Of a stretch of DNA of 64,000 nucleotides, positions 26,623 to 45,733 are shown in pieces. The DNA is from Paenibacillus lentus (GTDB lineage Bacteria; Bacillota; Bacilli; Paenibacillales; Paenibacillaceae), in assembly GCF_003931855.1 (NCBI RefSeq), contig NZ_CP034248.1:124001-188000 (forward strand), written 5' to 3'. Made by a program: the position numbers and the translations under genes. The notes under the pieces are model-generated. The model searched no databases, was not told the origin of the DNA, and saw only the letters and a program-made list of their open reading frames with translations. Each line of letters starts with the position of its first letter. The stretch's first letter is position 1.

Positions 26623-26665
26623 AGTGATTTATTTCACATATGTGTCTTTATTTCTGTGCTAAACT
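26623..26665 (+). promoter_or_regulatory. Crp/Fnr-like box and extended -10 promoter of pplA-ndh2
   Basis: AGTGA-TTTATT-TCACA (26623-26638) matches the TGTGA-N6-TCACA consensus at nine of ten positions. TGC-TAAACT (26657-26665) is an extended -10. The box centre lies about 41.5 bp before the expected start near 26672, the classical place for a Crp/Fnr activator, and no good -35 is present. The 5' leader to pplA is about 128 nt. The rest of 26384-26800 has no ORF and is A+T-rich. Confidence 0.65.
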
Positions 26666-26799
26666 TTGCTCAAACAAAGGTATTCCTTCCTATTTTATTA
26701 GGATTTAGGTACCTAAATTTCCCATATTATATGCCCTACGTTATTAAAATGGTTCACATTTTAATATATACAATTTTATTATTTTGGAGGTCATTTAAC

Positions 26800-27708
26800 A
26801 TGAAAAAAGCATCCATTATTCTCTGCAGTGCACTGCTGCTAGGACTTCTCGCAGGGTGCGGGGCAAAAAATGAGGCTAATACGGCGGAACCTGCCAACAA
26901 TGCTCCTGCTACTGAGAATACCGCCAACAATTCCAACGCCGAAGCTCCTGCTGCAGAAGGCAATTTCCAAGACGGTCTGTACTTCGCACTAGACAAAGAA
27001 GATCCAAAAACCGGCTGGCAATATTTCGTGAAGCTGCAAGTTGAAGGCGGCAAAATTACAGACGTGGAATGGAATGGTACAAATGCAACCGTACCGGTAG
27101 ACAAAGTCACTTACTCCGAGCAAGGCAAGTACGGCATGAAGGAAAAAGGCAACGCACAAGCCGAATGGCATGAGCAAGCTGCTAAAGCTGAGCAATTTTT
27201 GATTGAGAAACAGGACACCAAAGCTGTAACTCTTGACGAAGAAGGCAGAACAGACGCTATTTCCGGCGTATCCATCCATGTGAACGAGTTGTTTGATCTT
27301 GCCGACAAAGCTCTTGCTGCCGGACCAATCGAGCCAGGCCCTTATAAAGACGGCAACTACCATGCTGAAGCTGACAAATTTGCAGAAGGCTCCGGTTGGA
27401 AAGAGACCGTTGATGTTATCGTATCTGCAGGCAACATTGTAAGAGTGAATTTCAGCGGTGTGAATGAAGCTGGCGAGGACAAGAGACAAAACTCCATCGA
27501 CGGTAAATACGCTATGGTAGCTAACGGCGGCGCACAAGCTGAATGGCATGAGCAAGCTGCTAAAGCTGAGCAATACTTGATCGAGAAACAAGATCCTGCT
27601 GCATTAAGCTTCACTGAAGATGGCAAAACAGACGCTATTTCCGGTGTATCCATCAGCTTGAAATCGTATTACGATCTTGCTGCAAAAGCGCTAGAACAAG
27701 CGAAATAA
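26800..27708 (+). CDS. PplA-like lipoprotein with two FMN-binding domains
   Basis: 302 residues from the ATG behind GGAGG. The signal peptide ends LLGLLAGCG (lipobox), followed by an Asn/Ala/Glu-rich linker. Two homologous domains (about 50-170 and 180-300) each end in TDAISGVSI, which resembles the DxxSGA[ST] flavinylation site of NqrC/RnfG/PplA proteins. Covalent FMN would be attached by an ApbE enzyme, and one is encoded at 44357. In Listeria PplA is the surface flavoprotein that passes electrons to outside acceptors. Val replaces the usual Ala in both motifs, leaving Ser as the probable acceptor. The first gene with ndh2, 74 bp apart. Confidence 0.82.
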   Translation: MKKASIILCSALLLGLLAGCGAKNEANTAEPANNAPATENTANNSNAEAPAAEGNFQDGLYFALDKEDPKTGWQYFVKLQVEGGKITDVEWNGTNATVPVDKVTYSEQGKYGMKEKGNAQAEWHEQAAKAEQFLIEKQDTKAVTLDEEGRTDAISGVSIHVNELFDLADKALAAGPIEPGPYKDGNYHAEADKFAEGSGWKETVDVIVSAGNIVRVNFSGVNEAGEDKRQNSIDGKYAMVANGGAQAEWHEQAAKAEQYLIEKQDPAALSFTEDGKTDAISGVSISLKSYYDLAAKALEQAK

Positions 27709-27782
27709 TACTAATTCATTTATATATAAGTTTTATATAGCAACCCAGCCCCATGATTACCAGCTAAAGTAAGAAGGTGAAT

Positions 27783-29666
27783 ATGTTGAAGAAAATAGTC
27801 GTTCTAGGCGGCGGTTACGGTGGTGTCGTCACAACGAAGCACCTAGCCAAATTATTCAAAAAAGATAAAGATGTCGAAATCCAGCTGATTGACAAGGACC
27901 CCTATCATACGCTGTTGACGGAGCTGCATGAAGTCGCGGCGAACCGGGCACCTGAGGAATCAATTCAAATTGAATTGAAGAAGATTTTTGCAGGACAGAA
28001 CGTGGATGTTGTACTGGACTACATCGACAACATTGATTTTAACTCCAAGGAGCTGCGCTCCAAGAAGCACACTTACAAGTACGATTACCTAGTTATCGGT
28101 ACTGGATGTAAGCCAACCTTCTTCGGCATTCCAGGCGCAGAGGAACATGCAATGACCTTATGGTCATACGAAGATGCCGTTAAATTGAAGATACAGGTTC
28201 GACGCATGTTTAGCGAAGCGGCTAAAGAAACAGATCCGGCCATTCGCAAGAAGAAGTTATCCTTCGTCGTTGTCGGAGCGGGCTTTACCGGAGTTGAGCT
28301 CGTTGGTGAGCTGGCAGAGTTCCGTGATGAACTGTGCAAGGAATTCTACATCGATCCGAGTGAGGTGCGCCTCGTCGTAGCGGATATGGCACCGAAGATT
28401 CTGCCGATCCTGCCTGACAAACTGATCGATAAAGCGGTCAAACGACTAAACAAGATGAATGTTGAAATCGTGACAAACGCCAAAATTACCGGGGTAACGA
28501 AGTCAAGCGTTCTGCTTGGAGAGAAAGAGCTTGAGGCAGCTACGATCGTTTGGACGGCTGGTGTCGAAGGCTCCGATCTCGTTGGTAAGCTTGACGTTCA
28601 ACAAGAAGGACGTAAACGCATCGTTACTAACGATAAGCTGCAAAGCGTGGATCACGAGGATGTATACATCGTTGGCGACAATATTTTCTACATCCCGGAA
28701 GGTGAGACCCGCCCTGTTCCGCAAATGGTTGAGAATGCTGAACAAGCCGGCCCAATCATTGCTCATAACATTCATGCCGATGTTAAGGGCAAACCGAAGA
28801 AGTCTTATAAACCAGGCTTCCACGGTACGATGGTATGTATCGGCAGCCGCTATGGTGTAGCGAACGTAGGTTTGCCGAATAAAATGTTCATGGTCAGCGG
28901 ATTCTTCGCGATGTTCTGCAAGCACTTGATCAATATGTACTATTTGTTCACTGTGGCAGGCTTTAACAAGGTCTGGACTTACATGATGCATGAGTTCTTC
29001 CACGTGAATAATAATAGAAGCTTCGTAGGCGGCCATTTCGCCAAACGTTCACCTAACTTCTGGCTTTTACCGCTTCGCATATTCGTAGGCTACAAATGGT
29101 TGCAGGAAGGTCTTGATAAACTGCCTAAGGTGCTTAAGAATCCTTCAGATATCTTCCTGATTCCTGCTGCACCTCAGGCCAAAGGCGATGCAGTATCCGC
29201 AGCAAGTGCAGCGGCGGAAGCCGTAACGTCAACCGTTGATGCTCAAGCGGCTGCATCTGCAGTACAGAGTGCTTCAACCGCAGTTACCGCGCTGCCGGTA
29301 CCTGATTTCATTACAAATACAGTAAATTGGTTTATGAATATCTTCTTCTATACTTCCGATGGCGGATATACCGGACTTGCTTCCGTATTCCAGACCGGAA
29401 TGGTATTTGCAGAAATTATTATCGGTATCTTGCTTATTGCTGGCCTGTTCACAGCAGTATCCTCGATCGTCACCGTTGCACTTGGCATTATGATCTGGTC
29501 CTCCAGTATGGCCTCGAGCGAGATGTTGTGGTACATGACGGCTGGCGTAGCACTGATCGGCGGATCAGGCAGCATGTTTGGTCTTGATTACTACGTACTG
29601 CCTTGGCTTAAGAAACAATGGAGGAGAATACCGCTTGTTCGCAGATGGTATCTCTACACGGATTAA
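27783..29666 (+). CDS. ndh2: Type II NADH dehydrogenase with C-terminal membrane extension (EET type)
   Basis: 627 residues. The first 400 are a typical NDH-2: FAD-binding VVLGGGYGGVVT, second Rossmann FVVVGAGFTGVELVGELAE, and AD-binding VYIVGDNIFY. The remaining 220 add DoxX-like membrane segments (WLLPLRIFVGYKWLQEGLDKL, VFAEIIIGILLIAGLFTAVSSI, MASSEMLWYMTAGVALIGGSG) separated by an Ala-rich linker. Ordinary NDH-2 enzymes are about 400 residues. The fused membrane domain is known for Ndh2 of the Listeria electron transfer locus. It oxidises NADH and reduces a quinone. The ATG at 27783 fits the AAGAAGG site; the GTG two codons earlier does not. Confidence 0.9.
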   Translation: MLKKIVVLGGGYGGVVTTKHLAKLFKKDKDVEIQLIDKDPYHTLLTELHEVAANRAPEESIQIELKKIFAGQNVDVVLDYIDNIDFNSKELRSKKHTYKYDYLVIGTGCKPTFFGIPGAEEHAMTLWSYEDAVKLKIQVRRMFSEAAKETDPAIRKKKLSFVVVGAGFTGVELVGELAEFRDELCKEFYIDPSEVRLVVADMAPKILPILPDKLIDKAVKRLNKMNVEIVTNAKITGVTKSSVLLGEKELEAATIVWTAGVEGSDLVGKLDVQQEGRKRIVTNDKLQSVDHEDVYIVGDNIFYIPEGETRPVPQMVENAEQAGPIIAHNIHADVKGKPKKSYKPGFHGTMVCIGSRYGVANVGLPNKMFMVSGFFAMFCKHLINMYYLFTVAGFNKVWTYMMHEFFHVNNNRSFVGGHFAKRSPNFWLLPLRIFVGYKWLQEGLDKLPKVLKNPSDIFLIPAAPQAKGDAVSAASAAAEAVTSTVDAQAAASAVQSASTAVTALPVPDFITNTVNWFMNIFFYTSDGGYTGLASVFQTGMVFAEIIIGILLIAGLFTAVSSIVTVALGIMIWSSSMASSEMLWYMTAGVALIGGSGSMFGLDYYVLPWLKKQWRRIPLVRRWYLYTD

Positions 29667-29742: not shown

Positions 29743-29834
29743 AACAATGACTATCGTTCGTTAGTGGATATTTAACCGCCAATATCGGTGCGAAATCCCC
29801 TGCAAACCTACTTGCTTGTTAAGGAGTGTTCCTC

Positions 29835-30287
29835 ATGATTACTGCTCTCATTCAAGATGCTTGTCATTTCTTGCAGGGCGAAATATCGCCCGAAACCGGC
29901 ATTACCCTAAATCTGAAGATAGAGGATGCACTGCCTGCAGCTCTCCTTCTCTCAGAATATGATATGACGGCAGAACGGAGAATCCGTCTGCTCTCCATTT
30001 ACATCGCAATCAAGCTCGCCCTCCAGCGTCACCAGGATTGTCACCTTCTGGAACCGGGTGATATGCTCACTCGCAAAGTACTGGATGGCGATTACTTATA
30101 CAGCTTCTACGTGCAGCTCTGCCTGCGCTTTGAAGAGTTCGATCTCCTTACTCATCTAGCTCCACTAGTCAAGCAAATCCAAATCAAACGCGTCGAGGGA
30201 CAGCCTGACGACGAACGTCTCGCTAAAGGCTTCGAAGTGTTCCTTCGTCTGGAGCACAATCGAAATCATGCCCGCCAGGCGATTTAG
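29835..30287 (+). CDS. HepS-like small subunit of long-chain prenyl diphosphate synthase
   Basis: About 150 residues from the ATG behind AAGGAG (8-nt spacing). It is helical, with the local pattern VLDGDYLYSFYVQLCLR and LLTHLAPLVKQIQIKR, which resembles VLAGDYFSGLYYSLLSE in Bacillus HepS (component I of heptaprenyl diphosphate synthase). The similarity is weak elsewhere and the protein is shorter than HepS (about 250). The next gene encodes the catalytic component II, which supports the reading. Component I sets product chain length with component II. Confidence 0.65.
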   Translation: MITALIQDACHFLQGEISPETGITLNLKIEDALPAALLLSEYDMTAERRIRLLSIYIAIKLALQRHQDCHLLEPGDMLTRKVLDGDYLYSFYVQLCLRFEEFDLLTHLAPLVKQIQIKRVEGQPDDERLAKGFEVFLRLEHNRNHARQAI

Positions 30288-30390: not shown

Positions 30391-31371
30391 ATGAAGATAA
30401 ATGAACAGCTTGGCATCTCCCTTAGAACAGTAGACAAAGAAATTGAGAACATAGTCAAATTCGACAAGGATGTCCCCCGCTCCTCGGATCTTGCCCAAAG
30501 CATTATTGGGCTTATTCGCTCAGGAGGAAAACGAGTTCGCCCATTGATGGTGATCGTGGGGAGCCGCTTCGGCCCTGCGCCTGATGAACGCAAAGTATGG
30601 CGCCTGGCTGCGGCCGCTGAATTCATTCATGCTGCTTCCTTAATCCATGATGACGTCATCGACGATTCGCCCGTTCGCCGAGGAGACAAAGCCATGCACA
30701 TCAAGCTTGGCGTAAACCGTGCCATCCACGTCGGCAATTACATGTCGGCGCGGGTCATTGAATTAATCTCTGTCTATTCTGCCGACCGCGAGCGATATGT
30801 GTACGATCTCTCCTCCTTAGTGACAACGCAATTATGCCTGGGAGAATATCAGCAGTTATCCCATTTATTCGATTATGACGTGACGATTGAACAATATTTA
30901 GAGAAGTCCAGAAACAAAACCGCCCAGCTTATTGCAGCCTGCCTGCGAATCGGAGCGCTGTCAGCAGAAGCCGACGAAGAGACAGCTGACCAGCTATACA
31001 ATTTCGGGGAAAAACTGGGCATGGCATTTCAAATTCGTGATGATATCCTGGATTTTACCCAATCCTCGGAGAAGCTCGGCAAGCCTGCTGGAAGCGATCT
31101 GCGCAGCGGTCAAGTAACGCTTCCCGTCCTATTCGCGCTACAGGATGAGGCGCTTGCTCCTAAGATCAGAGCGGTGAACGAGCACACGCCAGCCGAATAT
31201 ACCGATGAAATTATCGCAGCAATCCAGAACAGCGATGCGCTGGAGAAAACCGAAGCGTTAAGCCAGCAATATTTAACCGAGGCTCAGCAAATTATTGATC
31301 GCTTAAGCCATTATCCGGCTCATCGCGACTTAAAGGTACTACTCAAATTCTTCAGCGGACGGGAGAATTAG
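30391..31371 (+). CDS. Long-chain polyprenyl diphosphate synthase, catalytic component (HepT/DmkB-like)
   Basis: 326 residues of the trans-isoprenyl synthase family. The first Asp-rich motif is LIHDDVIDDSPVRRG and the second FQIRDDILDF. GGKRVRPL binds the substrate. It makes the long prenyl tail of menaquinone or demethylmenaquinone from FPP and IPP. GAGGAGGGG precedes the ATG. In Listeria a homologue (DmkB) sits in the electron transfer locus and serves a separate quinone pool. A general menaquinone role is the alternative. Confidence 0.9.
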   Translation: MKINEQLGISLRTVDKEIENIVKFDKDVPRSSDLAQSIIGLIRSGGKRVRPLMVIVGSRFGPAPDERKVWRLAAAAEFIHAASLIHDDVIDDSPVRRGDKAMHIKLGVNRAIHVGNYMSARVIELISVYSADRERYVYDLSSLVTTQLCLGEYQQLSHLFDYDVTIEQYLEKSRNKTAQLIAACLRIGALSAEADEETADQLYNFGEKLGMAFQIRDDILDFTQSSEKLGKPAGSDLRSGQVTLPVLFALQDEALAPKIRAVNEHTPAEYTDEIIAAIQNSDALEKTEALSQQYLTEAQQIIDRLSHYPAHRDLKVLLKFFSGREN

Positions 31372-31626: not shown

Positions 31627-32583
31627 ATGAACACCACGGTCAGAAACGCACCGGCCTCAGCTGCAGTCACGACTTCCTCATACAAAATCGTACATAAGAG
31701 AGGGTTGACCGCAAGCTTCAAGGAGCATATGCTGGCCTACCTTTTTCTCGCCCCGTCTATCGTGCTATTCGGTCTATTCCTCCTCTATCCTCTGATCAAA
31801 TCGGTATATCTCAGCTTCTTTCTGACAGACCCGCGCGGCAATATTGCGGCTTACGTCGGACTGGACAATTTCAAGCAGCTCCTGGGCTCCTCCCAATTCT
31901 GGAACAGTCTCGCTGTTACCGGCAAATTCGTGCTGCTTACCGTTCCGGGCGGACTTCTCCTCGGCTTGATCATGGCCGCATTCGCTCATTCTCGATTAAA
32001 GGGGATACGGCTGTTTCAGTTTATTTTTTCCCTTCCCCTCGCCCTTTCGGTTAGTACGTCAGCGGTGATCTGGATGATGCTATTCCATCCGACACTGGGC
32101 ATGTTCAACTATTTTCTAGATTTAGCGGGGCTTCCCGCCATACAATGGCTAACCGATTCACGCTGGGCGCTCATATCGATATCAATCATGACCGTGTGGA
32201 TGAACTCCGGGTTTAACTTCATCGTGCTGCTCAGCGGCCTGCAAGGAATTCCTGAGGATATGTATGACAGCGCCAAAGTGGATGGGGCAGGACCGTTCCG
32301 CACGTTCATCCGCATCATTCTGCCGCTGCTATCGCCTACGCTGTTCTTCCTGCTTATCGTATCTGTTATCGGCTCATTTCAAGCGTTCGGGCAAATGCAC
32401 ATTTTGACCAAGGGCGGTCCAGCAGGCTCAACCGAAGTATTTGTCTATTCCATTTATAAGGAAGCCTTCGTGAATTACCAGTTTGGCACGGGCAGCGCCA
32501 TGGCCCTCGTCCTGTTTCTGCTCATTCTGATTCTGACGCTTATTCAATTCACCATTTTGGAAAAGAAGGTGCACTATCAATGA
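31627..32583 (+). CDS. ugpA: ABC sugar-type permease, UgpA-like
   Basis: 318 residues with six spans. The MalF/UgpA pattern shows AYLFLAPSIVLFGLFLLYPLI near the start and the EAA loop DMYDSAKVDGAGPFRTFIRIILPLL. A long cytoplasmic N-terminus precedes span 1. AAGGAGGGAAT precedes the ATG. With UgpE and UgpB it forms an importer, probably for sn-glycerol-3-phosphate. Its stop overlaps ugpE by 4 bp. No ATPase gene is nearby, so a shared UgpC/MsmX-type ATPase is expected. Confidence 0.88.
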   Translation: MNTTVRNAPASAAVTTSSYKIVHKRGLTASFKEHMLAYLFLAPSIVLFGLFLLYPLIKSVYLSFFLTDPRGNIAAYVGLDNFKQLLGSSQFWNSLAVTGKFVLLTVPGGLLLGLIMAAFAHSRLKGIRLFQFIFSLPLALSVSTSAVIWMMLFHPTLGMFNYFLDLAGLPAIQWLTDSRWALISISIMTVWMNSGFNFIVLLSGLQGIPEDMYDSAKVDGAGPFRTFIRIILPLLSPTLFFLLIVSVIGSFQAFGQMHILTKGGPAGSTEVFVYSIYKEAFVNYQFGTGSAMALVLFLLILILTLIQFTILEKKVHYQ

Positions 32584-33407
32584 CGTTATCCCGCCCCCTT
32601 CGCCACGGCGCTGTATACTTCGTCCTGTGCTTACTGTCCTTATTCATCCTATACCCGCTTCTCTACACCTTCCTCTCCGTATTTATGACGCCGGAAGAGA
32701 CGAGCCAATTCCCCCCCGCTCTCTTCCCGTCCAGCTTGTATTTAGGTAGCCTTGAGGCGGTCATCCAGCTCATCCCTGTGTTTCGCTTCATCGCTAACAG
32801 CTTCATCGTCTCCACGCTCGTCATGGTCGGACAACTCGTGACGGCGAGCCTGGCCGCATATGCTTTTGCTTTTATTGCTTTTCGCGGCAAGGCGTTCTGG
32901 TTTGCGGTCTTTTTGTCAACGATGATGATTCCTTGGGAAGTGACGATGATCCCTAACTTCCTCCTTATCAAATCATGGAACTGGCTGGACTCTTATCCGG
33001 GACTCGTCCTCCCCTTCCTCGCCTCTGCCTTTGGCGTATTCCTGCTGCGGCAATTCTTTCTGCAATTGCCCCGGGAGCTGTTTGAAGCAGCGCGAATGGA
33101 CGGCTGCGGTCATCTACGCTATTTCGCGGGCATCGTTCTGCCGTTGGCCAGGCCCGGTCTTGCCACGCTTGCTGTGTATGTGTTCCTGAATACCTGGAAT
33201 ATGTATTTATGGCCGCTGCTCATTACGAATACCGCGAATATGCGCACCGTACAAATCGGGATCAGCATGCTGCAATTCGAGGAAATGACGGCCTGGAACA
33301 TCGTTCTTGCCGGAGTCGCGCTCGTACTGCTTCCTTCGCTCATCCTCATTGTTCTTGGGCTTAAACAGCTCGTGCGCGGATTAACTGCAGGGGCCATCAA
33401 GGGCTAG
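32580..33407 (+). CDS. ugpE: ABC sugar-type permease, UgpE-like
   Basis: 275 residues and six spans of the MalG/UgpE family. The EAA loop reads LFEAARMDGCGHLRYFAGIVLPL. LYTFLSVFMTPEETSQFPPALFP is the usual periplasmic-side start. It begins within the last codon of ugpA (ATGA overlap). Confidence 0.88.
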   Translation: MTLSRPLRHGAVYFVLCLLSLFILYPLLYTFLSVFMTPEETSQFPPALFPSSLYLGSLEAVIQLIPVFRFIANSFIVSTLVMVGQLVTASLAAYAFAFIAFRGKAFWFAVFLSTMMIPWEVTMIPNFLLIKSWNWLDSYPGLVLPFLASAFGVFLLRQFFLQLPRELFEAARMDGCGHLRYFAGIVLPLARPGLATLAVYVFLNTWNMYLWPLLITNTANMRTVQIGISMLQFEEMTAWNIVLAGVALVLLPSLILIVLGLKQLVRGLTAGAIKG

Positions 33408-33537
33408 CCCCCTAGGAAATAAATTTATAGGTATCTGCCTAAAGGCACTACCGCTACGCCCCAGGATGACAGGATCAGCAACTCCCGTCCACCGACGGAT
33501 AAAATAAAGGATTAGATCAAAAGGGAGAGAAAAAACA

Positions 33538-34947
33538 ATGAAACCGTTCAAGCTTAAACACTCATTATTGCTCGCTACGATTTTGCTTCTATCCATGCTC
33601 ATATCTGCCTGCGGAGCAGCAGGCGGCGGCTCGGGAGCAACGGCCGACGGGGAAGCCCCGGCAAACAACTCATCGACTTCTAGCAATGCGAAAAATGGAG
33701 ATTCCGCACCCGAAGACAAAACCAAAGTCGTGTGGTGGCATTCCATGGGCGGCGAGTTGGGCACAGCCACGGATCAACTCGTAGCCGACTTCAACGCTTC
33801 CCAGGACAAAGTGGAAGTAGAAGCGATTTTCCAAGGAACCTATGACGAAAGCTTGAATAAAATGAAAGCTTCTATGGATTCCAAATCCGGCCCGTCTCTC
33901 ATTCAGGTGTACGAAATCGGCTCTCGCTTCATGATTGACTCAGGAGCAATTACTCCGGTACAGCAGTTTATCGATGAAGAAAACTATGATCTCGGCCAAT
34001 TAGAAGAGAACATCATGAATTACTATACTTTTGAAGGCAAGCAGTACTCCATGCCCTTCAATACGTCGAACCCGATTCTCTATTACAATAAGGACTTGTT
34101 CAAAGCCGCAGGTCTTGACCCGGACAAAGCTCCGGCAACCTATGAAGAGCTGAAGAAAGCAGCTGAAACGCTGAGCAAAAGCGGAGCACCGGCCTCCTTT
34201 GCCATTTACGGCTGGTTTATGGAGCAGTTCTTTGCCAACCAAGGCGCAGAATATGTCGACAATGGTAACGGTCGTACCGCCCCGGCAACCCAATCCTTGT
34301 TGAACACGGAGGCAGGCGTTAATACGCTGGAATGGTGGAAAAGCCTCATCGATAGCCAGGCTGCAATCAACCTGGGGCGTAAAACCGATGACACGAAGAA
34401 AGCCTTTGTCGCCGGACAGGTCAGCATGACGCTGGACTCCACGGCGGGACTCCGGGGGATCGTAGACAGTGTTGGCGATAAATTCGAGGTCGGTACCGCG
34501 TTTCTCCCTAACCCCGAAGGCGCCTCTGACGGTGGCGTCATTATCGGCGGAGCAAGCCTCTGGATTCTCAACAATAAACCGGAAGCGGAGCAAAAGGCGG
34601 CCTGGGAGTTCATTAAGTTCCTTGCCGAGCCGCAAACGCAAGCGAAATGGCATATTTCCACCGGATATTTCCCTATTACGAAGAAGGCTTATGACGAGCA
34701 AATCGTCCAGGATAATTTGACGAAATATCCGCAGTTCCAAACGGCCGTCGATCAGCTGCATGCCAGCAAGCCTAGCCTGGCAACGCAGGGAGCCGTAATG
34801 GGCGTGTTCCCGGAAGCCCGCCAAATCGTGGAGAGTGCGATCGAAGAAGCGCTAGGCGGCAGCAAGTCCGCCAAGCAGGCGCTGGACGATGCCGCCAAAT
34901 CGATTACGGATAAAATTGGCAACTATAATAGAACAGTGCAAAAGTGA
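33538..34947 (+). CDS. ugpB: ABC transporter substrate-binding lipoprotein, UgpB-like
   Basis: 469 residues. The lipoprotein signal ends MLISACGAAGGG, followed by a Gly/Ala/Ser linker. The binding domain has VVWWHSMGGELG, YNKDLFKAAGLDPDKAPATYEEL and WHISTGYFPITKKAYDE, close to UgpB of glycerol-3-phosphate importers (WWHSMxG and GYxPVTxxAY). AAAGGGAGAG precedes the ATG. The Pho box upstream agrees with phosphate-ester uptake. Confidence 0.88.
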   Translation: MKPFKLKHSLLLATILLLSMLISACGAAGGGSGATADGEAPANNSSTSSNAKNGDSAPEDKTKVVWWHSMGGELGTATDQLVADFNASQDKVEVEAIFQGTYDESLNKMKASMDSKSGPSLIQVYEIGSRFMIDSGAITPVQQFIDEENYDLGQLEENIMNYYTFEGKQYSMPFNTSNPILYYNKDLFKAAGLDPDKAPATYEELKKAAETLSKSGAPASFAIYGWFMEQFFANQGAEYVDNGNGRTAPATQSLLNTEAGVNTLEWWKSLIDSQAAINLGRKTDDTKKAFVAGQVSMTLDSTAGLRGIVDSVGDKFEVGTAFLPNPEGASDGGVIIGGASLWILNNKPEAEQKAAWEFIKFLAEPQTQAKWHISTGYFPITKKAYDEQIVQDNLTKYPQFQTAVDQLHASKPSLATQGAVMGVFPEARQIVESAIEEALGGSKSAKQALDDAAKSITDKIGNYNRTVQK

Positions 34948-35897: not shown

Positions 35898-35988
35898 AGT
35901 ATCCACACTCCTCGATGCATTGCACATTAGCGAAGCTTACTAGTTGACTGCGAAATTCCGTTACAGGATCTGACCGCTTGCGGACGCC

Positions 35989-37428: not shown

Positions 37429-38248
37429 CGTTCCCGCTCCTTTTCTATGCGATACATTCACTCTTAATACGATATATACACCTTGCGCTTGTACCTTGCG
37501 TTTGGCACTCTACATGGCGCACGGGACTTGGGACTTGTCCCCAGCACTTAGTCCAAGCACTTACACCAACTCTTACATAACATTTAGATGACGCTTAGTT
37601 GCACCTACGCCGCTATCTAAATACACGCATAATACTCCCATAACACTCGCCTAACTCTTGGCACCACCAGTCCCCGATCCAGCACCAGCACTTAATACGA
37701 GCACTGGGACAAGCACTTAGATTTCACTCTGGCAAAAAAATCCGCCTTGAAGCCTTGCTTCACTTGGCGATTAGTTTAGATTAACTTAGCCTAAACCTCT
37801 GCTCTGGCGGGCGTTTCACCTTTGGCCTTCGTGTAATATTAAGGTTGTCTAACTAACTGTATTTTAGGTATTTAAAAACATACGATTGCAGCTATTCAGC
37901 CTTTTAACTGGATTTCGTGCAGCTAAAACTATGCCTCTCGCAACAGCGAACGGATATATCCAAATTTACATACGTGAAATCCAGTTAATTCGCCACAAGC
38001 CCAGAATTCTCAAAAGTAACAACATGAAATCCAGTTAATCTAGTACTTCGGACAAGATACCTTTTTCCATCTTACTTTTGCCGTGCCCCACTCGTCTATA
38101 TTGCCATCCATTCGTTTTGTCGTTCATTCGCTCGTTGGACACCATAGTCACCGCTCACTATTCGCACGTTTGACCGCCACAGTTCACCGCTCACCATTCG
38201 CTCGCTTGGCCGCTCAACTTTTTACGCGCTCGCTCGTTCATCCTACCG
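37429..38248. repeat. Gene-free stretch with inverted repeat TTAACTGGATTTC and degenerate repeats
   Basis: No convincing gene. TTAACTGGATTTC at 37904-37916 faces two copies of its complement GAAATCCAGTTAA at 37976-37988 and 38026-38038, so it can form alternative hairpins. The left part repeats AGCACTTA-like words (about 37545, 37560, 37695, 37720). Near 38148 and 38184 a 30-bp unit beginning CACCGCTCAC recurs with a 36-bp period. It may be an intergenic repeat family. Confidence 0.55.
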
Positions 38249-40312
38249 TTACTGCCCTGTTATTTGCATCTGCCCTTGCCCCGGCTCGACTTCACAAGCT
38301 TCCGCTTCTGCAGCGACAGGACGCCCGGCCACGCCTCCGTCGAACTGAAGCGCCCCTAGCGTATAGCCTGCATAGACTGGGGTCATTCCGGTAAACAGCT
38401 CCCCAGCAGCTTCAGGCTGCTCTATAGCGGTTTTATAGACGCTTACGATCGACTTTAACTGCTCTGGCTGATAAGTCGCCCCTTCGATGCGGCAAACGGA
38501 CAGTCCAGCGTCCTGAAGCTCCTTAATGACTGGCAATAGGCAAAGCTCTTTGGCGAGCATCAGATGGCAGCGTCCATGAACATCACGGTAAACTGGGTTC
38601 TCCCCCTTGTCGGTCATCAGCACCAAAATACGGTTGTCTACGTAAAGATTATTTTCCTCGGCGATCGGTTCGAATACCTCGGTGTTCTCATACAAATCAT
38701 GCTCCATGTACATCAGAGCCGGGGAGCCATGCACGACCGCCTCGAGTGGAACATCGGCATTCTCCAGCAGCTTGCTGAATTCGTACAGCGGCAGCTCCAC
38801 GGATGCTGTAAATCGCTCGACGCCAAGCTTTGCGTACATTTCCGCAGACAGATGATTAAAAATATTCAAATTGATGTCGCCCACAAGCGGATATCCCTTC
38901 GAGGCAAATTTATGAATCGCACCAAGGTTGGTTACGAGAATCCCGTCAATCGGCAGACGTTCTCCGGACAATAGTGCGTCGTACATCTCAAAATGCAGCT
39001 CCGTCATCATCCTCGGCAGGCCCAAGTACAGCTTAGCCTCCCCTTTGATCTCAGCCAGCTGTGCAATCTCCTGCTTCGTAAAAGGGCGATCCGGCTCAAA
39101 CACATCGCCTGACAAATAAACATGATCCGCCCCGCCTTCAAGCGCTGCGCGCGCCTGGGCCGCATTGTTCACATGCACGGACAGCTCCATCCGATTTTGA
39201 CCATTTCGACAGTTTCGGTTAGTGCCTTGCTGCCCGCACTGCTCCGCTCCGCCCCTTTCCGCAGCCCTGACCAGAACGTTCGCAACCTCGCCCAGCCGTT
39301 TCTCTCCTAGTCTCCGTTCTTCCGTCGGCGTACTGAACACCTTGCCTGTGCTGTAAAACTTCCCTGTTCCCTCATAGCGTTTATTTATATAGGACAACCC
39401 TGGACGACCAAAGGCATAGCCTGTGGAAAAATCCCGCTTGCGATTGTCATATAGCAGCTTGGTATCCCGGTTCCGCTCAAAGCCTACCGGATCCTCGATA
39501 TAGCGATCAATTGCATCTCCATAGGCATTAACGAGCATGAGCACAAATTCTGTATCACGCATGCGCCCTTCGATTTTAAACGATGTCACTCCGCCATGGA
39601 TCAGTTCAGGAATATGCTCGTACATGAACATATCCTTCACGGCAAGCGGATATTCAGACGGATACACATAGCCATCCTTCTTCACCCGATAATCCCAGCG
39701 GCACGGCTTAAGACATTTGCCGCGATTGCTGCTCATCCCGAATACTAGTGAGCTGAAATAGCAATTTGCGCCATGCACGGAACACATATCTCCATGAATA
39801 AAATATTCCAATTCCATGCCTGTCGTTTCACGCAAATATCGCGTTGTCGTCAGATCCATTTCCCTAGAGGTTACGACCCGGGTTACTCCCATCTCGCTTA
39901 GCGCCGTAATCATCTCACGATTATGTACGTTCATCATGACCGAGGAATGCACTGGAAGCTGCAGCTTCATCTCCTGAATCAGAGCCAGAATGGCAAAATC
40001 CTGAACAATAATCGCATCTGGCCCAGCCTGTTCCAAGAAACGCAAATAATCACGAGCCTCTTCGATTTCCCCTTCATTCAGCAAGTTATTCACCGTGACG
40101 TACGCTTTTTTATGAAGAGCATGTGCATGCTTGATTGCCTCGATGATCTCTGGCCGACTGAAATTATAGCCTTTGCGCATCATGCGCATATTAAGGCTCG
40201 GCCCTCCAAAATAAACAGCGTCACAATTCGCGTGGATGACTTCCTTGAAAATTTCAAACGTCCCAGTCGGCGCAAGCAGTTCGACTTCTTTTCCATTAAA
40301 ATAACGTGCCAC
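38249..40312 (-). CDS. U32-family peptidase-like protein, long form
   Basis: 687 residues. The N-terminal peptidase U32 domain begins VELLAPTGTFEIFKEVIHANCDAVYFGG and has the conserved region HGDMCSVHGANCYFSSLVFG followed by RGKCLKPCRWDY, with four Cys likely to bind an iron-sulfur cluster. The family includes enzymes for tRNA and rRNA base hydroxylation (TrhP, RlhA). This long form has a second U32-like half with LPIDGILVTNLGAIHKFA and a C-terminal Cys-containing stretch. The GTG start at 40312 is behind GGGAG. No catalytic claim beyond the family is made. Confidence 0.87.
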   Translation of the reverse strand: MARYFNGKEVELLAPTGTFEIFKEVIHANCDAVYFGGPSLNMRMMRKGYNFSRPEIIEAIKHAHALHKKAYVTVNNLLNEGEIEEARDYLRFLEQAGPDAIIVQDFAILALIQEMKLQLPVHSSVMMNVHNREMITALSEMGVTRVVTSREMDLTTTRYLRETTGMELEYFIHGDMCSVHGANCYFSSLVFGMSSNRGKCLKPCRWDYRVKKDGYVYPSEYPLAVKDMFMYEHIPELIHGGVTSFKIEGRMRDTEFVLMLVNAYGDAIDRYIEDPVGFERNRDTKLLYDNRKRDFSTGYAFGRPGLSYINKRYEGTGKFYSTGKVFSTPTEERRLGEKRLGEVANVLVRAAERGGAEQCGQQGTNRNCRNGQNRMELSVHVNNAAQARAALEGGADHVYLSGDVFEPDRPFTKQEIAQLAEIKGEAKLYLGLPRMMTELHFEMYDALLSGERLPIDGILVTNLGAIHKFASKGYPLVGDINLNIFNHLSAEMYAKLGVERFTASVELPLYEFSKLLENADVPLEAVVHGSPALMYMEHDLYENTEVFEPIAEENNLYVDNRILVLMTDKGENPVYRDVHGRCHLMLAKELCLLPVIKELQDAGLSVCRIEGATYQPEQLKSIVSVYKTAIEQPEAAGELFTGMTPVYAGYTLGALQFDGGVAGRPVAAEAEACEVEPGQGQMQITGQ

Positions 40313-40615: not shown

Positions 40616-41419
40616 CTATATGAAAAATCGGTACAGCAGCACCGCCACAGCCAAAAGAGCAAATGATAAAACGAACCAAGTGTCACGACTCTTCCATTCG
40701 AGCCTATGATACTCTGAACGGGGTGCTCCGATTCGATAGCCTCTTGATTCCATTGACAAAACCAATTCCTCAGCCCGGCGAAAAGCACCTACCGTAACGG
40801 GAACGAGCAAGGATACTAGCATCTTCCCCTTCTCTTTCCATGGCAGCTCCCGCAAATCAGCGCCCCGGGCTGCCTGTGCCTTCACGATCTTCTGCGACTC
40901 ATCGAGGATCGTCGGAATGAACCGCAGCGCAATGCTCATCATCAATGTCAAGCGCTGTGCCGATATGCCGATCGCCTCGAACGGCTTGAGCACGCCGGCC
41001 ATCCCTTGATTCAACCGCCCAGGCGTCGTTGTGAACGTAAGGATCGCGGTAAACGAGACAAGCATTGCCATACGCGAAGCCGAAATAAGCCCAAGGCTAA
41101 CTCCTCCAGAATAGAGAGTCCATGAGCCGATCTGCCAGAGCGCAGTTCCTTCGGTCACAGTAAAGCACTGCACGGCAAAAATAAACACCATGAGCACCCA
41201 GAGTGGCTTAGCCGCCTTGACGTAATACTTAAGCGGAATTTTCGTTGACGACATATAAGCGAGTGAAAAGACCGCGGCAGCTCCAAGCGCAGGCCATGAG
41301 CCCACGGCAACGATCGCGATAAGATACAACACCATCGCCGTCAGCTTCGCCCGCGGGTCAAGCCCGTGAATCCACGATCCGGTATCGATGCTTCGGCCTA
41401 TCACAAGCTTTCCCCGCAT
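40616..41419 (-). CDS. ecfT: ECF transporter membrane subunit EcfT
   Basis: 267 residues with about five spans. The EcfT signature is present: GSWIHGLDPRAKLTAMV near the start, the coupling helix motif AQAARGADLRELPWKEK (ARG) and a second ALRFIPTI...RAEELVLSMESRGYR. It links an S-component to the two ATPases. It overlaps the upstream EcfA gene by 19 bp. It is the last gene of the minus-strand eetA-eetB-ecfA1-ecfA2-ecfT run. Confidence 0.93.
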   Translation of the reverse strand: MRGKLVIGRSIDTGSWIHGLDPRAKLTAMVLYLIAIVAVGSWPALGAAAVFSLAYMSSTKIPLKYYVKAAKPLWVLMVFIFAVQCFTVTEGTALWQIGSWTLYSGGVSLGLISASRMAMLVSFTAILTFTTTPGRLNQGMAGVLKPFEAIGISAQRLTLMMSIALRFIPTILDESQKIVKAQAARGADLRELPWKEKGKMLVSLLVPVTVGAFRRAEELVLSMESRGYRIGAPRSEYHRLEWKSRDTWFVLSFALLAVAVLLYRFFI

Positions 41420-42309
41420 GCCAATCTCTCCTCTCTGTCTTTTGATCTACCCGCAGCCAAGAACGCCTGCTCCAGCCGCTCGGCTAATGAGTCCGGCGTC
41501 AAGCACGGCTTCTCTCCCTCCATTCCGTACTGGGCGGCAAGCTGATTCCAAAGGGTGATGCATTCCGGAAGAGCCAGCCCCTCCTGCTCCAGAACGGCGG
41601 ATTCGCGGACAAGCGCATCAGTCGTGCCCTGGAACAGCGTCCGGCCGCTCTTCATAATAATCCACCCATCGACGTAGGGCAGCAGTTCTTCCATCCGGTG
41701 CGTCACGACGATTACCGTCTTGCCCTGCTCGCGGTGCAGCTTGGATAGCAATGCGGCAAGCTCAGCCCGGCTCTGCGGATCAAGAGTGGCCGTGGGCTCA
41801 TCCAAAGCAATCACCTCGGGGTCCATGGCCAGCACTGAAGCTATGGCGACTTTGCGCATTTGACCGCCGCTTAGATGAAAGGGATTTCGCGAAAGAAGCG
41901 ACTCGTCCAGACCCAGCAGGTCCAGCGCCCATCTTGCCCGTTCCCTCGCTTCCGCCAGAGACATTCCAAAATTAAGCGGGCCAAAACAAAGGTCTTTTTC
42001 CACCGTGTCCTCGAATAACTGCTGCTCGGGAAATTGAAAGACAAGCCCCACACGTCTGCGCAGCTCGCTCATTTTAGGCGCTTTTTCCCGGGCATTCACC
42101 ACCACGTCCAAAATCCGCACACGGCCTTCTGTCGGCCTCAGGATGCCATTGAAATGCTGCAGCAGCGTCGATTTGCCAGAGCCTGTCGTACCGGCAATAC
42201 CCGTAAATGTTCCAGGCGGAATATCAAGATTGACGCCCTCCAGCGCCCCGCTTCGCCATAAGGTTCGATCATCGTAGGCGTAGCTTACCTCATCGAATGT
42301 AATAGCCAT
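41401..42309 (-). CDS. ecfA2: ECF transporter ATPase EcfA2
   Basis: 302 residues from the ATG behind AAGGAGGTGG. Walker A is GTTGSGKSTLLQHFNG, the Q-loop lies in LVFQFPEQQLFEDTV, the signature is LSGGQMRKVAIASVLAM and Walker B is VIALDEPTATLDP, with the H-loop in VVTHRME. EcfA2-specific features include the TTGSGKST P-loop. It would energise vitamin/flavin transport or FAD export together with EcfA1 and EcfT. Confidence 0.94.
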   Translation of the reverse strand: MAITFDEVSYAYDDRTLWRSGALEGVNLDIPPGTFTGIAGTTGSGKSTLLQHFNGILRPTEGRVRILDVVVNAREKAPKMSELRRRVGLVFQFPEQQLFEDTVEKDLCFGPLNFGMSLAEARERARWALDLLGLDESLLSRNPFHLSGGQMRKVAIASVLAMDPEVIALDEPTATLDPQSRAELAALLSKLHREQGKTVIVVTHRMEELLPYVDGWIIMKSGRTLFQGTTDALVRESAVLEQEGLALPECITLWNQLAAQYGMEGEKPCLTPDSLAERLEQAFLAAGRSKDREERLACGESL

Positions 42310-42313
42310 AATG

Positions 42314-43135
42314 TCACCACCTCCTTGTATGCCGGCCTCGGAGAATAGCTTCTCCATCCATCCCCCGCTTCCTTAGCTCCTGCTGAAGCCTCACCCGATA
42401 AGGCGCGATCAAACGACACGCCTGCAGCAGCTCCTCATCTTCGAATAGCTCCGCAGGAGCTCTATCGGCCGCAATGGCCCCGCCCCGAAGCACAATCGCC
42501 CGGTCCGAGGCCATAATCTCTTCCGCATCATGCGTAATCGAAATGAGCGTGTAATCCCCGCTCTTCCGCATCTCCTGCCAAATTTGCAGCAGCTCCCCGC
42601 GTGCTTTCTCATCCAACATGGAGGATGCTTCATCAAAAATAACGATACCAGGCTCCATCGCCAGAATAGAGGCGAGGGCTACGCGCTGCTTCTGTCCCCC
42701 TGACAGCTCCGATGGATGCTTGGATAACAGATGACTGATTCCCAGCTTCTCGGCGTATCGCTGTACCCGCTCCCTCATCTCCTCACGAGCAAGACAACGT
42801 CCCTCCAACCCGAAGGCGATATCCTCTTCCACCGTGGCCCCGATAAATTGGTTATCGGGATTTTGGAATACCATACCGATCCGCGGGCGAATATCCCAGA
42901 CCGATTCCCGCGTCAGCTCGCGGCCCTCCACAGTAATCGAACCGCTATTTACAGCAAGTAATCCGCCTAGTAGCTTGGCAAGCGTTGATTTTCCGCAACC
43001 GTTGGGGCCGACGATCGACACCCAGCTTCCAGAAGCAATACGGAATGTCACCTCATCCAAAATCGGGGTTTCCGGCACATAAGCAAAGGATACCTGCTCC
43101 AATTCATAAGCATATTCCGCTTCCGCTGCAGCCAT
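42314..43135 (-). CDS. ecfA1: ECF transporter ATPase EcfA1
   Basis: 273 residues. Walker A is GPNGCGKSTLAKLLGG, the Q-loop VFQNPDNQFIGATVEEDIAFGL, the signature LSGGQKQRVALASILAM and Walker B IVIFDEASSMLD (Ala for the usual Pro after Glu). It starts 12 bp after eetB behind AAGGGGG and ends 4 bp before ecfA2, so the two ATPases are coupled. Confidence 0.94.
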   Translation of the reverse strand: MAAAEAEYAYELEQVSFAYVPETPILDEVTFRIASGSWVSIVGPNGCGKSTLAKLLGGLLAVNSGSITVEGRELTRESVWDIRPRIGMVFQNPDNQFIGATVEEDIAFGLEGRCLAREEMRERVQRYAEKLGISHLLSKHPSELSGGQKQRVALASILAMEPGIVIFDEASSMLDEKARGELLQIWQEMRKSGDYTLISITHDAEEIMASDRAIVLRGGAIAADRAPAELFEDEELLQACRLIAPYRVRLQQELRKRGMDGEAILRGRHTRRW

Positions 43136-43147
43136 CTCCTCACCCCC

Positions 43148-43726
43148 TTAATCATTCAAAAACGATTCAAACAAAGATAGCCTGGACAGAGCTGGGATCA
43201 AATAGCGAACCGCAATCCCAACCGCAATCCCCGTCAACACTCCTGTAATGAGGAGCATCGGCAGGTAATAAAATATTTTCGTTGTCAGGAAATATAGTGA
43301 TGCCGCCGTAAGCTGCCCGATATTATGAGCAATCCCTCCCACGATGCTTATGCCGATCATGCTCAGTCTCTTGCGTCCTACCAGAAGCAGGAACCACATT
43401 GCCGCAAAGCTAAACAGCGCGCCCATAATGCTAAATAAAAAACTGGAGAACGTACCAAATATAAAGGCAGTAAGCAAAGTCTTCAGCAATACCATCATCA
43501 GGGCATCCCTTGCCTTCAGGAAATAAAGGCAGGTCAGTACCATAATATTAGCCAGTCCCAGCTTGGCCCCCGGAACTCCCATGTTAATGGGAATAAGCGA
43601 TTCGATCAGACTTAACACGACTGCAACCGCAGCGAAAATAGCCACGATCACCGTTCTTTTCAATATGAGGGTGGACGATTCGCTGCCCAGCGACCTCTGC
43701 GCAGTTTGCTTATTTAACAATGGCAT
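43148..43726 (-). CDS. eetB: EetB-like membrane protein (Gx transporter family)
   Basis: 192 residues and about five to six spans. PGAKLGLANIMVL and GGIAHNIGQLTAASL are typical of the Gx transporter/heptaprenyl synthase component I Pfam family. The latter name is misleading, since these are integral membrane proteins. In Listeria EetB is needed for electron transfer to outside acceptors together with EetA. It overlaps eetA by 17 bp. An S-component-like function for the ECF module is a possible alternative reading. Confidence 0.85.
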   Translation of the reverse strand: MPLLNKQTAQRSLGSESSTLILKRTVIVAIFAAVAVVLSLIESLIPINMGVPGAKLGLANIMVLTCLYFLKARDALMMVLLKTLLTAFIFGTFSSFLFSIMGALFSFAAMWFLLLVGRKRLSMIGISIVGGIAHNIGQLTAASLYFLTTKIFYYLPMLLITGVLTGIAVGIAVRYLIPALSRLSLFESFLND

Positions 43727-44105
43727 CTATATCATCTCCTTCCCCCAGGTCTCCTTCGATTTCAACAATCATTTTATGCGGAAGGCAGACAATCGCCCCC
43801 CCATCGCGCTTAACAAAGCCGAAGGTTAGACATAACTGATCGGGACAGTCCGCCTCAATCATCTCTATACCATAGTCATGCACCTTCAAAATGTTGAGAC
43901 CATCCTCGGTTTCAATTTCAATAATTTGCTCCTCCTCCGTGAGTTCCACGGATCGAACCAGCTTACCGTCTACTTTAATATTTGCGACAAGCGGAGTATT
44001 ATTGTGATTTTTTTCACTTAAATCTGCAAAAAGCCACCTTGGAATTAGAAATGCCAGAGCAATAACGACGATCAAGCTAACCAGCAGGACGTCTCCACGT
44101 TTCAT
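43710..44105 (-). CDS. eetA: EetA-like protein (NusG domain II)
   Basis: 131 residues. One N-terminal membrane anchor (VLLVSLIVVIALAFLIP) is followed by an extracytoplasmic NusG-domain-II fold with the signature CPDQLCLTFGFVKR and IVCLPHKMIVEIEG; three Cys are visible. It is the first gene after a good promoter. Listeria EetA has the same architecture and lies next to EetB. It probably carries electrons from quinol towards the flavoprotein. The mechanism is not established. Confidence 0.87.
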   Translation of the reverse strand: MKRGDVLLVSLIVVIALAFLIPRWLFADLSEKNHNNTPLVANIKVDGKLVRSVELTEEEQIIEIETEDGLNILKVHDYGIEMIEADCPDQLCLTFGFVKRDGGAIVCLPHKMIVEIEGDLGEGDDIDAIVK

Positions 44106-44151
44106 AGAGAAAACCCCTTATTTTTTAATTATATAAATTCTAGACGAACTC

Positions 44152-44180
44152 ATTATAACCCCTGTTTTTCAAACCTTCAA
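44152..44180 (-). promoter_or_regulatory. Sigma-A promoter of the eetA operon
   Basis: On the minus strand TTGAAG (44175-44180) is spaced exactly 17 bp from TATAAT (44152-44157). A degenerate Crp/Fnr-like site (TGTGC-N6-TCTCA on the plus strand, 44190-44205) lies upstream of it. Confidence 0.78.
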
Positions 44181-44265
44181 TGACTAACCTGTGCGATTTC
44201 TCTCATTTTCCTGATTGTCACAAAACCCTCACTTTGTAAGGAATTTAATGGAATAATCATTACTT

Positions 44266-44309
44266 TGTGAAAAATATTACTTTTAACAAATTGCTATTCT
44301 TGATACAAT
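44266..44309 (+). promoter_or_regulatory. Crp/Fnr-like site and extended -10 promoter of fmnB
   Basis: TGTGA-AAAATA-TTACT (44266-44281) matches eight of ten consensus positions of TGTGA-N6-TCACA. TGA-TACAAT (44301-44309) is an extended -10. The distance from box centre to -10 (30.5 bp) is almost the same as at pplA (29.5 bp). Confidence 0.5.
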
Positions 44310-44356
44310 AAATTTGAATCAATAAATTTAGAAAGAAATGAAATGAGGCGGCACAC

Positions 44357-45451
44357 ATGAACCACAACAGACTGATTACCCTCGGGCTAACCGTACTATT
44401 ATCCATGACCTTATTGGCTGGATGTGGCACAAATTCGAACCCGTCAACCAACTCCGTCTCTAAGAATCAAAAAACGGCAAATGATCATGAATCTATTAAG
44501 CCGATGGCAGAAACATTCTTTATATTCGATACCGTTGTCAACGTGAAAATATACGATAACCGAGCGACTAGAGAGCATTTTAACGAAATCGAAGCTCTAT
44601 TGAAGGACATCGACAGCAAAATCAGCCGTACGCTGGAGAGCAGCGAGATCTACCAGGTTAATGTAAACTCCGGAAAATCCGCCGTTAAAGTATCCTCTGA
44701 AACCTTCGAGCTTGTCATCAAAGCTCTGGATTATGCTAAGCGTACTGACGGGAAATTCAATCCCGCCATCGGCAACTTGGTTACACTGTGGAATATCGGC
44801 CATGAGAACGCCAAAGTGCCCGATGCTAATCTGATTGAGGCGGCCAGGACACTTAACGACTACCGTCTGATTGACCTGAATCAGGACACGCAGGAAATCT
44901 ATTTGCAGAAGGAAGGCATGGCTATCGACCTCGGTTCGATCGGTAAAGGCTATGCGGCGGATGCAATTTACGACTATTTACAGGAGCAGGGCTTCAGCAG
45001 CGCCATCATCGATCTTGGCGGAAATATTTATGCGATGGGCCAGAAGCCGGGAGGTAAAATGTGGAATATCGGCATTCAAGACCCCGACAAGAACCGAGGC
45101 AATTCCATCGGCACGCTTCAGGTGGAAGATAAGACCGTCGTCACCTCCGGTATATATGAACGTTTCTTCATCGAGGATGGCAAGCTGTATCAGCACATTC
45201 TCGATCCCGAAACCGGCTATCCGGTAGACAACGGCATCAGCAGCGTTACGGTCGTCACGAAGCATTCCACGGATGCGGATGCCCTCTCCACTACGCTGTT
45301 CGTACTCGGCATTGAGGAAGGACTCAAGTTTATCGAGGATACCCCGGATACAGAGGCACTGTTCATTTCCAAAGAGCAGAAACTCTATGCAACATCAGGC
45401 TTCAAAAACATGCTGAATAAGACGAACGATAGTTATACCTTTGCCAACTAG
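44357..45451 (+). CDS. fmnB: FmnB/ApbE-like FAD:protein FMN transferase lipoprotein
   Basis: 364 residues. The signal peptide ends MTLLAGCG (lipobox). The ApbE domain shows FIFDTVVNVKIYD, the FAD-binding region AIDLGSIGKGYAADAIYDYL, HILDPETGYPVDN and the Mg-binding STDADALSTTLFVLG. It moves FMN from FAD onto Ser/Thr of target proteins outside the membrane. The two-domain lipoprotein at 26800 is the obvious target. It is divergent from eetA across a 250-bp promoter region. GAGGCGG precedes the ATG. Confidence 0.93.
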   Translation: MNHNRLITLGLTVLLSMTLLAGCGTNSNPSTNSVSKNQKTANDHESIKPMAETFFIFDTVVNVKIYDNRATREHFNEIEALLKDIDSKISRTLESSEIYQVNVNSGKSAVKVSSETFELVIKALDYAKRTDGKFNPAIGNLVTLWNIGHENAKVPDANLIEAARTLNDYRLIDLNQDTQEIYLQKEGMAIDLGSIGKGYAADAIYDYLQEQGFSSAIIDLGGNIYAMGQKPGGKMWNIGIQDPDKNRGNSIGTLQVEDKTVVTSGIYERFFIEDGKLYQHILDPETGYPVDNGISSVTVVTKHSTDADALSTTLFVLGIEEGLKFIEDTPDTEALFISKEQKLYATSGFKNMLNKTNDSYTFAN

Positions 45452-45702
45452 GCAATGGGCAGCTGCCGTCGCTAGGCGCGGCAACCCTGGGAGAGAGATA
45501 GGCCTGTTTGATCGCTTGGACGAAGCGAAGCTCCTAGCAACATCCATACGCCTGTATCATTGCCTGAGGAAGCGAATTTGCCACAGTACAGCAATACAAG
45601 CCTGCCTGCGCCACTACCTCGGTGCAGCGAGATTACCTCAGTACAACAATAGAAGCCTGCTGCTTCACTTCCTGAGTGCAGCAATAACCACGCATGCCAC
45701 TT
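45452..45702. repeat. Degenerate repeats between fmnB and its terminator
   Basis: Units of about 55-60 bp containing CAGTACARCAATASAAGCCTGC recur near 45592 and 45640, with partial copies near 45555 and 45680. The reading frame over this stretch (45441-45779) does not look like protein. Confidence 0.45.
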
Positions 45703-45733
45703 ACCGCTTCTGCTATATGCTGAAGCGGTTTTT
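45703..45733 (+). terminator. Terminator after fmnB
   Basis: ACCGCTTC pairs with GAAGCGGT around an 11-nt loop, followed by TTTTT. Confidence 0.8.

Follow-up and report, generated by a model that had tools for sequence, protein, structure and literature searches.

We analysed a 64,000-nucleotide stretch of the Paenibacillus lentus genome (contig NZ_CP034248.1, positions 124,001 to 188,000; hereafter the window), which stems from a single-contig assembly of 5.29 Mb. Family-profile searches and comparison with solved structures revealed that almost every part of the Listeria-type system for flavin-based extracellular electron transfer (EET) has a homologue in its region from 26.8 to 45.5 kb. 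Family E-values were clear-cut for the EET components, with the exception of an open reading frame (ORF) of 153 amino acids (aa). The forward strand carries the genes of a PplA-like lipoprotein, Ndh2, the 153-aa ORF, a HepT-like synthase and ugpA/E/B. These are followed on the reverse strand by a UbiA-family prenyltransferase, an aminotransferase (AT), a U32-family protein, EcfT, EcfA2, EcfA1, EetB and EetA, from which FmnB is divergent. A MenA-type DmkA, the type to which we take the Listeria enzyme to belong, is missing from the locus, and its slot is occupied by U32, AT and UbiA (the Listeria gene order used for this comparison is likewise assumed). The near-exclusive link of these three genes to EET suggests an unrecognised quinone route. 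The features of the locus are as follows (window coordinates and strand).

26800..27708, +, PplA-like lipoprotein with two repeats of the flavin mononucleotide (FMN)-binding type (NF041941, E 1.2e-18, 67.4 bits, below its cut-off of 325)
27777..29666, +, Ndh2, a type II NADH dehydrogenase (PF07992, 1.5e-38) fused to a weak DoxD-like membrane domain (PF04173, 1.3e-4, just under the cut-off)
29826..30287, +, probable HepS-like small subunit, 153 aa (hhalign and structure model)
30391..31371, +, HepT-like polyprenyl diphosphate synthase, DmkB role (PF00348, 2.2e-66)
31627..34947, +, ugpA-ugpE-ugpB-like transporter, outside the system
35025..35927, -, UbiA, MqnP-like prenyltransferase, DmkA role (TIGR01475, 279.6 bits, over the cut-off of 180.8)
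36142..37461, -, class III AT dependent on pyridoxal phosphate (PLP) (TIGR00707, 333.9 bits, below its cut-off)
38249..40312, -, U32-family protein (PF01136, 7.2e-92)
40616..41419, -, EcfT, FmnA role (PF02361, 1.1e-36)
41401..42357, -, EcfA2 ATPase (TIGR04521, 336.9 bits, over the cut-off of 330)
42314..43135, -, EcfA1 ATPase (TIGR04520, 314.5 bits, cut-off 315)
43148..43726, -, EetB, ECF-S-like subunit for export of flavin adenine dinucleotide (FAD) (PF07456, 5.5e-44)
43710..44105, -, EetA (PF07009, 2.3e-28)
44357..45451, +, FmnB, ApbE lipoprotein, divergent from eetA (PF02424, 6e-91)

A sequence-only reading of the window had named these EET homologues, and profile searches with each protein bore it out for PplA-like, Ndh2, HepT-like, UbiA, EcfT/EcfA2/EcfA1, EetB, EetA and FmnB. 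The PplA-like protein has an LAGC lipobox, and each of its two repeats carries a TDAISGVS motif; the second repeat matches the solved structure 2kzx (E 1.1e-33). At the last position of the motif, serine replaces the threonine of the solved relative; we take this residue to be the one that accepts FMN. As in Listeria-type EET, the protein is a predicted lipoprotein with two FMN sites, and its flavinylation is likewise predicted. The nearest solved chains of Ndh2 are NADH dehydrogenase-like proteins, and that of FmnB is 7esa_A (E 5.5e-79), presumably the Listeria FmnB. FmnB lies beside EetA and EetB, and the locus further comprises the ECF-T/A exporter genes, a dedicated Ndh2 and a polyprenyl synthase (DmkB).

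Some features of EetA and EetB were seen on the side. Cysteines 87, 92 and 107 of EetA are invariant in 45 of 45 rows. In locus L079, EetB and EcfA1 are apparently fused in one reading frame (8260-9765, reverse strand, 501 aa), and genus g9 has long EetB frames of 502-576 aa (G168, G257, G258, G262-G266, G271, G272 and G274). Both would be consistent with a role of EetB as a subunit of an ECF transporter.

Co-occurrence of U32, AT and UbiA with EET

Window-type proteins were searched for in 394 Paenibacillaceae genomes with limits chosen to leave out paralogues (U32 E<=1e-150, AT E<=1e-125, UbiA E<=1e-95), on which the negatives depend. EetB was found in 160 genomes, U32 in 153, AT in 150 and UbiA in 152. 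Both EetB and U32 were present in 152 genomes, EetB alone in 8, U32 alone in one and neither in 233, so that window-type U32 occurs in 152 of the 160 EetB-positive versus one of the 234 EetB-negative genomes. The sole genome with U32 but no EetB, G177, is an assembly of about 900 contigs in which EET-type HepT and HepS-like genes lie beside UbiA (L130); its EetB may fall in an assembly gap. Three genomes had no AT above the threshold (G064, G177 and G184), and two had no UbiA (G064, 85% complete, and G199, 72% complete).

The genes are also close to each other. In 136 of the 149 genomes with listed places, at most 8 kb separates U32 from EetB; the two lie apart in 12, and G255 is fragmented. 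Three of the 152 genomes (G045, G072 and G073, close relatives) were left out of this count, as their U32 gene gives two separate matches; it is perhaps broken or frameshifted there. Gene order was compared in 17 named loci selected by EetB similarity, from Paenibacillus, Paenibacillaceae, Fontibacillus and Bacillus sp. FJAT-27264; an eighteenth (L029, from a metagenome-assembled genome) was too divergent to compare. The order eetA-eetB-ecfA1-ecfA2-ecfT-U32-AT-ubiA was found in 16 of them, and in the seventeenth (L018) the contig ends after U32. The full U32-AT-UbiA trio was present in 39 of 62 fetched EetB-bearing loci, a set that is partly redundant (L080 and L150 are one genome, and named contigs overlap G genomes) and in which some loci are cut by contig ends; L018 and L029 are without the full module.

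Most informative were the 12 genomes in which U32, AT and UbiA are clustered at a site of their own (L061-L072), separate from the EET genes; the EET loci fetched from these genomes (L073-L078, L143-L148) hold no UbiA. That the trio stays together when separated from the EET genes indicates that the three belong together, and that the partner of U32 and AT is the prenyltransferase, not the flavin exporter. Thus, U32-AT-UbiA is a conserved three-gene module.

The sequence-only reading had described the system as dispersed over three blocks, split by the glycerol-3-phosphate transporter (ugpAEB), the AT and the U32 gene. Co-occurrence and synteny rule out AT and U32 as interruptions: both are regular neighbours of UbiA and EcfT. 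The description holds for ugpAEB, which looks like a local insertion. Among the 17 loci L012-L028, a UgpB-type gene adjoins UbiA only in L012 (P. bouchesdurhonensis), and in 11 the HepT-like gene lies beyond UbiA with no ugp match between them; the remaining loci end too early.

The eight genomes with EetB but no U32 revealed what else can fill the slot. Five of them (G014, G276, G324, G328 and G391) carry a MenA-type UbiA directly after ecfT, at the very place of the module, and no fetched locus has both the trio and the MenA type. The sequence-only reading was right that the architecture is unlike that of Listeria, but the key difference, a MenA-type DmkA replaced by U32-AT-UbiA in the same slot, had escaped it. 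We built a tree of the EET core (EetA, EetB, EcfA1 and EcfT) from 44 hand-chosen rows that cover the module-apart genomes except L144. Two sister pairs in it combine a genome whose module lies apart with one that has the MenA slot: G343 with G324 (support 99/97) and G279 with G276 (100/100). L138 and L146 were flagged by the program for long branches and unusual composition, the flag of L146 (which is G279) being for composition. Well-supported branches force at least four changes for the MenA slot label and at least five for the module-apart label; the exchange was therefore not one event. The MenA type and the module look functionally equivalent, and it is mainly on this apparent equivalence that we base the view that the module supplies the EET quinone.

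The quinone branch and its possible chemistry

Elsewhere in the genome, we found a housekeeping operon with the order HepS-MenG-MqnP-UbiX-MqnA-HepT-ndk (MqnA, HepT and the UbiA member named by family search, the others by eye from sequence and order), and two genes of PF02621 (MqnA/MqnD family). Judged by these genes, P. lentus most likely makes menaquinone by the futalosine route. Since the operon has its own MqnP and HepT, the UbiA and the HepT-like protein of the window are second copies, the latter with 34% identity to the genome's own HepT. That the window UbiA is the only, housekeeping MqnP is thereby ruled out. HepS-MenG-MqnP-UbiX also stand in a row in seven of the eight U32-negative EET genomes, with MqnA adjoining in six (not in G207). 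G328 (L111, L125, L131, L139; MenA slot) has no MqnP-like UbiA among its PF01040 matches and may use another menaquinone route. The P. lentus genome further has two MenA-family prenyltransferases (L031, 4919-5872 and 8931-9863; G000:C1, about 1.285-1.290 Mb), one of them over a curated MenA cut-off (386.2 of 289 bits).

The sequence-only reading had called the window UbiA an enzyme of the MqnP type, which proved correct in the sense of MqnP-like. Both Asp motifs are kept in 49 of 49 rows, and identity to the genome's own MqnP is 42%. We built a tree from the window UbiA, 20 of 54 EET-type UbiA places, 6 of 9 housekeeping MqnP (>250 aa) and 10 of 15 MenA proteins (5 duplicates dropped). The EET type and the housekeeping MqnP were split from the MenA types (100/100), and the housekeeping MqnP formed their own clade (100/100). 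A class-level search found window-type U32 in 21 of 398 genomes, 17 of them Paenibacillaceae and four of family f23. In three of the four f23 loci, a UbiD-family gene lies between AT and UbiA; that of L102 scores 657.6 bits against TIGR03701, a menaquinone-biosynthesis decarboxylase model (cut-off 495.9), and those of the remaining two loci share 97% and 99% identity with it. Such a decarboxylase is consistent with UbiA acting on an aromatic acid that loses its carboxyl group after prenylation, as in the futalosine branch.

The 153-aa ORF had no family match in profile searches. Its structure model (pLDDT 90) has as top PDB match 9kp1_A (E 4.1e-3, TMq 0.66), chain A of the Bacillus subtilis heptaprenyl diphosphate synthase heterodimer, and hhalign against a small alignment of HepS proteins from this and related genomes gave a partial match of 54 columns in the GDY region (probability 77.5). 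From sequence and model together, the protein is probably a HepS-like small subunit; the sequence-only reading, which had proposed one, was probably right, with weaker evidence here than for the EET assignment and for UbiA.

The U32 protein has a CX6CX15CX3C motif (C177, C184, C200 and C204) that, together with E169, is invariant in 49 of 49 aligned rows. A CX6CX15CX3/4C motif of U32 proteins has been linked to 4Fe-4S clusters (PMC6747719), and residues E162, C170 and C177 of the relative TrhP were reported essential (PMC6599085). E169, C177 and C184 of the window protein have the same spacing. The relatives TrhP and RlhA are involved in prephenate-dependent RNA hydroxylation (PMC6599085), and UbiU-UbiV in an O2-independent ubiquinone pathway (PMC6747719). 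Best local matches to the other U32 proteins of the genome (genes at 2394964/2395979 and 1540934) reach 34-36% identity. Sequence search at E<=0.001 found no solved U32 relative, and the PDB matches listed for the structure model, which is poor (pLDDT 67), are generic barrel enzymes. The PLP lysine of the AT, K283, is kept in 45 of 45 rows, after three short rows had been dropped from the alignment.

We consider it rather probable that the quinone branch of EET is rebuilt here from futalosine-type parts, a U32 hydroxylase-family protein and an AT. The observed basis of this reading is gene content, residue conservation, co-occurrence and the MenA-type exchange; substrates, products and electron flow we infer. 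By analogy with Listeria work, from which the electron path and the flavin loading are taken, the Ndh2 fusion would oxidise NADH and reduce a naphthoquinone reserved for EET, and PplA with its two FMN sites, EetA and free flavins would carry the electrons outside. FmnB would load PplA using FAD exported by EcfA1-EcfA2-EcfT-EetB. The HepT-like/HepS-like pair would make the side chain of the quinone. The MqnP-like UbiA would prenylate the head group, probably 1,4-dihydroxy-6-naphthoate from the cell's own futalosine pathway, and so replace a MenA-type DmkA acting on 1,4-dihydroxy-2-naphthoate (DHNA). U32 and AT would probably modify the ring or a precursor; relatives of U32 are involved in hydroxylations that depend on prephenate or proceed without O2.

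A number of points weigh against this reading. The window UbiA scores under three curated MqnP cut-offs (266.1 of 430, 221.4 of 375 and 217.8 of 420), as does the genome's housekeeping MqnP (330.2, 236.3 and 283.9 for the same cut-offs). The tree does not show the EET type as a single clade (two changes), and its f23 rows join MqnP weakly (83/78). Of the enzymes in the MenA slot, those scored (G324 and G014) have DHNA polyprenyltransferases as best models, below the cut-off (118.1 and 115.1 of 277 bits), and the fetched loci of G207 and G217 have EET genes with neither the module nor a MenA type. Four of the five MenA-slot genomes carry the futalosine operon; the choice between the two solutions is thus not explained by the menaquinone route alone. 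The f23 decarboxylase could be a relocated housekeeping MqnL. Fisher's test for the EetB-U32 link (p 2.5e-98) overstates it, since the genomes are related. In the window, gaps of 214-787 bp separate the module genes. The nearest solved relatives of the AT are generic (phospho-lyase, racemase and γ-aminobutyrate (GABA) transaminase), so its reaction cannot be read from sequence. Finally, L. plantarum mutants without DmkA, EetB/DmkB or EetA kept DHNA-dependent EET, somewhat reduced (PMC10746273), so that a dedicated prenyltransferase is not always needed. Externally given long-chain menaquinones were not used by L. plantarum (PMC10746273). Together with the mutants, this indicates that a prenylated quinone does not play the same part in EET in all species.

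Three other explanations were weighed. It is possible, though we find it the less convincing account, that UbiA makes ordinary demethylmenaquinone from 1,4-dihydroxy-6-naphthoate and that the task of U32 and AT is to provide its precursor or to protect it, for instance in the region of chorismate/prephenate, leaving the final quinone undecorated. The MqnL-type decarboxylase in the module of three of the four f23 genomes and the prephenate dependence of U32 relatives speak for it, but the genome's own Mqn genes already cover the precursor, and the extra enzymes would be redundant. We regard it as unlikely that U32 and AT are hitch-hikers with other work, such as RNA hydroxylation or amino-acid metabolism, and that only UbiA serves EET. 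The RNA hydroxylation by TrhP and RlhA would be in line with such work. So would G168, which keeps the module UbiA in the EET slot with no U32 or AT above the thresholds and which also counts against the quinone branch as we propose it. However, the genome has separate U32 genes, the module U32 is all but confined to EetB-positive genomes, and U32 stays with AT and UbiA in the 12 genomes where the trio lies apart. A function in the flavin half, through a modified flavin cofactor or shuttle, is very improbable: the module usually follows ecfT in the FAD-export operon, but when apart it goes with the prenyltransferase and not with ecf, eet or fmnB, and it alternates with a MenA-type prenyltransferase.

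Within the rebuilt quinone branch, a bolder version can be formulated, to which we give a low probability. U32 would hydroxylate the prenylated naphthoquinone, or a precursor, without oxygen, and AT would aminate the keto tautomer of the resulting hydroxyquinone to yield an amino-demethylmenaquinone. This product would be the lipid counterpart of the EET shuttle 2-amino-3-carboxy-1,4-naphthoquinone (ACNQ) and a naphthoquinone analogue of rhodoquinone. In tests with L. plantarum, no other quinone gave as much ferrihydrite reduction as ACNQ (PMC10746273), which makes an amino-naphthoquinone a sensible, if bold, candidate.

Flanking genes were noted on both sides of the locus. Beside pplA lies an HD-GYP protein (24854-26383, reverse strand), likely a c-di-GMP phosphodiesterase, with relatives (>250 bits) in 10 of the 62 fetched EetB loci (L027, L028, L044, L048, L049, L052, L057, L060, L076 and L077); it is a possible regulator. 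At the other end, an IS4-family transposase (46117-47523, reverse strand; NF049925, 588.8 bits, over the cut-off) is next to the locus. A match to the BsrC family of small RNAs (45882-45969, reverse strand; 76.2 bits versus a gathering score of 38) lies between it and FmnB and was the sole Rfam match above threshold from 22 to 50 kb.

Comparison with known systems

An EET operon in Paenibacillus is already in print. The iron-mineral-reducing Paenibacillus sp. Cedars has seven of the eight Listeria EET homologues together with ecfA1-ecfA2-ecfT, and its dmkA is placed elsewhere in the genome (PMC10373932). By the description in section 16 of that paper, U32 and an aminotransferase are not mentioned for the Cedars operon. 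A literature search, with most subscription papers outside reach, returned nothing on U32 with EET in Firmicutes or on U32 with a menaquinone and aminotransferase operon, and neither 'Paenibacillus' nor 'extracellular electron' occurs in the main text of a survey from 2026 on the quinone pathways of bacteria (PMC13386864).

Little is understood about the quinone that Gram-positive bacteria reserve for EET. One operon slot with two solutions, swapped more than once among relatives, offers a natural experiment on what EET requires of its quinone. The module bears on the wiring of EET in bacteria that use the futalosine route, and on a possible part of U32 proteins and aminotransferases in quinone modification in Bacillota. 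For annotation, it offers a set of EET markers in Paenibacillaceae, in which dmkA can seem absent.

With UbiU-UbiV and TrhP/RlhA, the window U32 shares the four-cysteine motif and the spacing of the essential Glu, Cys and Cys; it differs in being one 687-aa chain with two U32 matches. With the MqnP/MqnL step of the futalosine pathway, the locus has in common the UbiA family and, in three relatives, an adjoining MqnL-type decarboxylase, whereas the window UbiA is only 42% identical to its own genome's MqnP and the housekeeping MqnP stand apart as a clade. In Listeria, EetB is the ECF-S subunit for FAD export, and PplA is flavinylated at two sites (PMC9973259). PplA, FmnB, Ndh2, EetA, EetB, ECF-T and a prenyl synthase are common to the FLEET locus of Listeria monocytogenes and to that of P. 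lentus, but the latter has an MqnP-like UbiA with U32 and AT, a probable HepS-like subunit, and EcfA1 and EcfA2 inside the locus.

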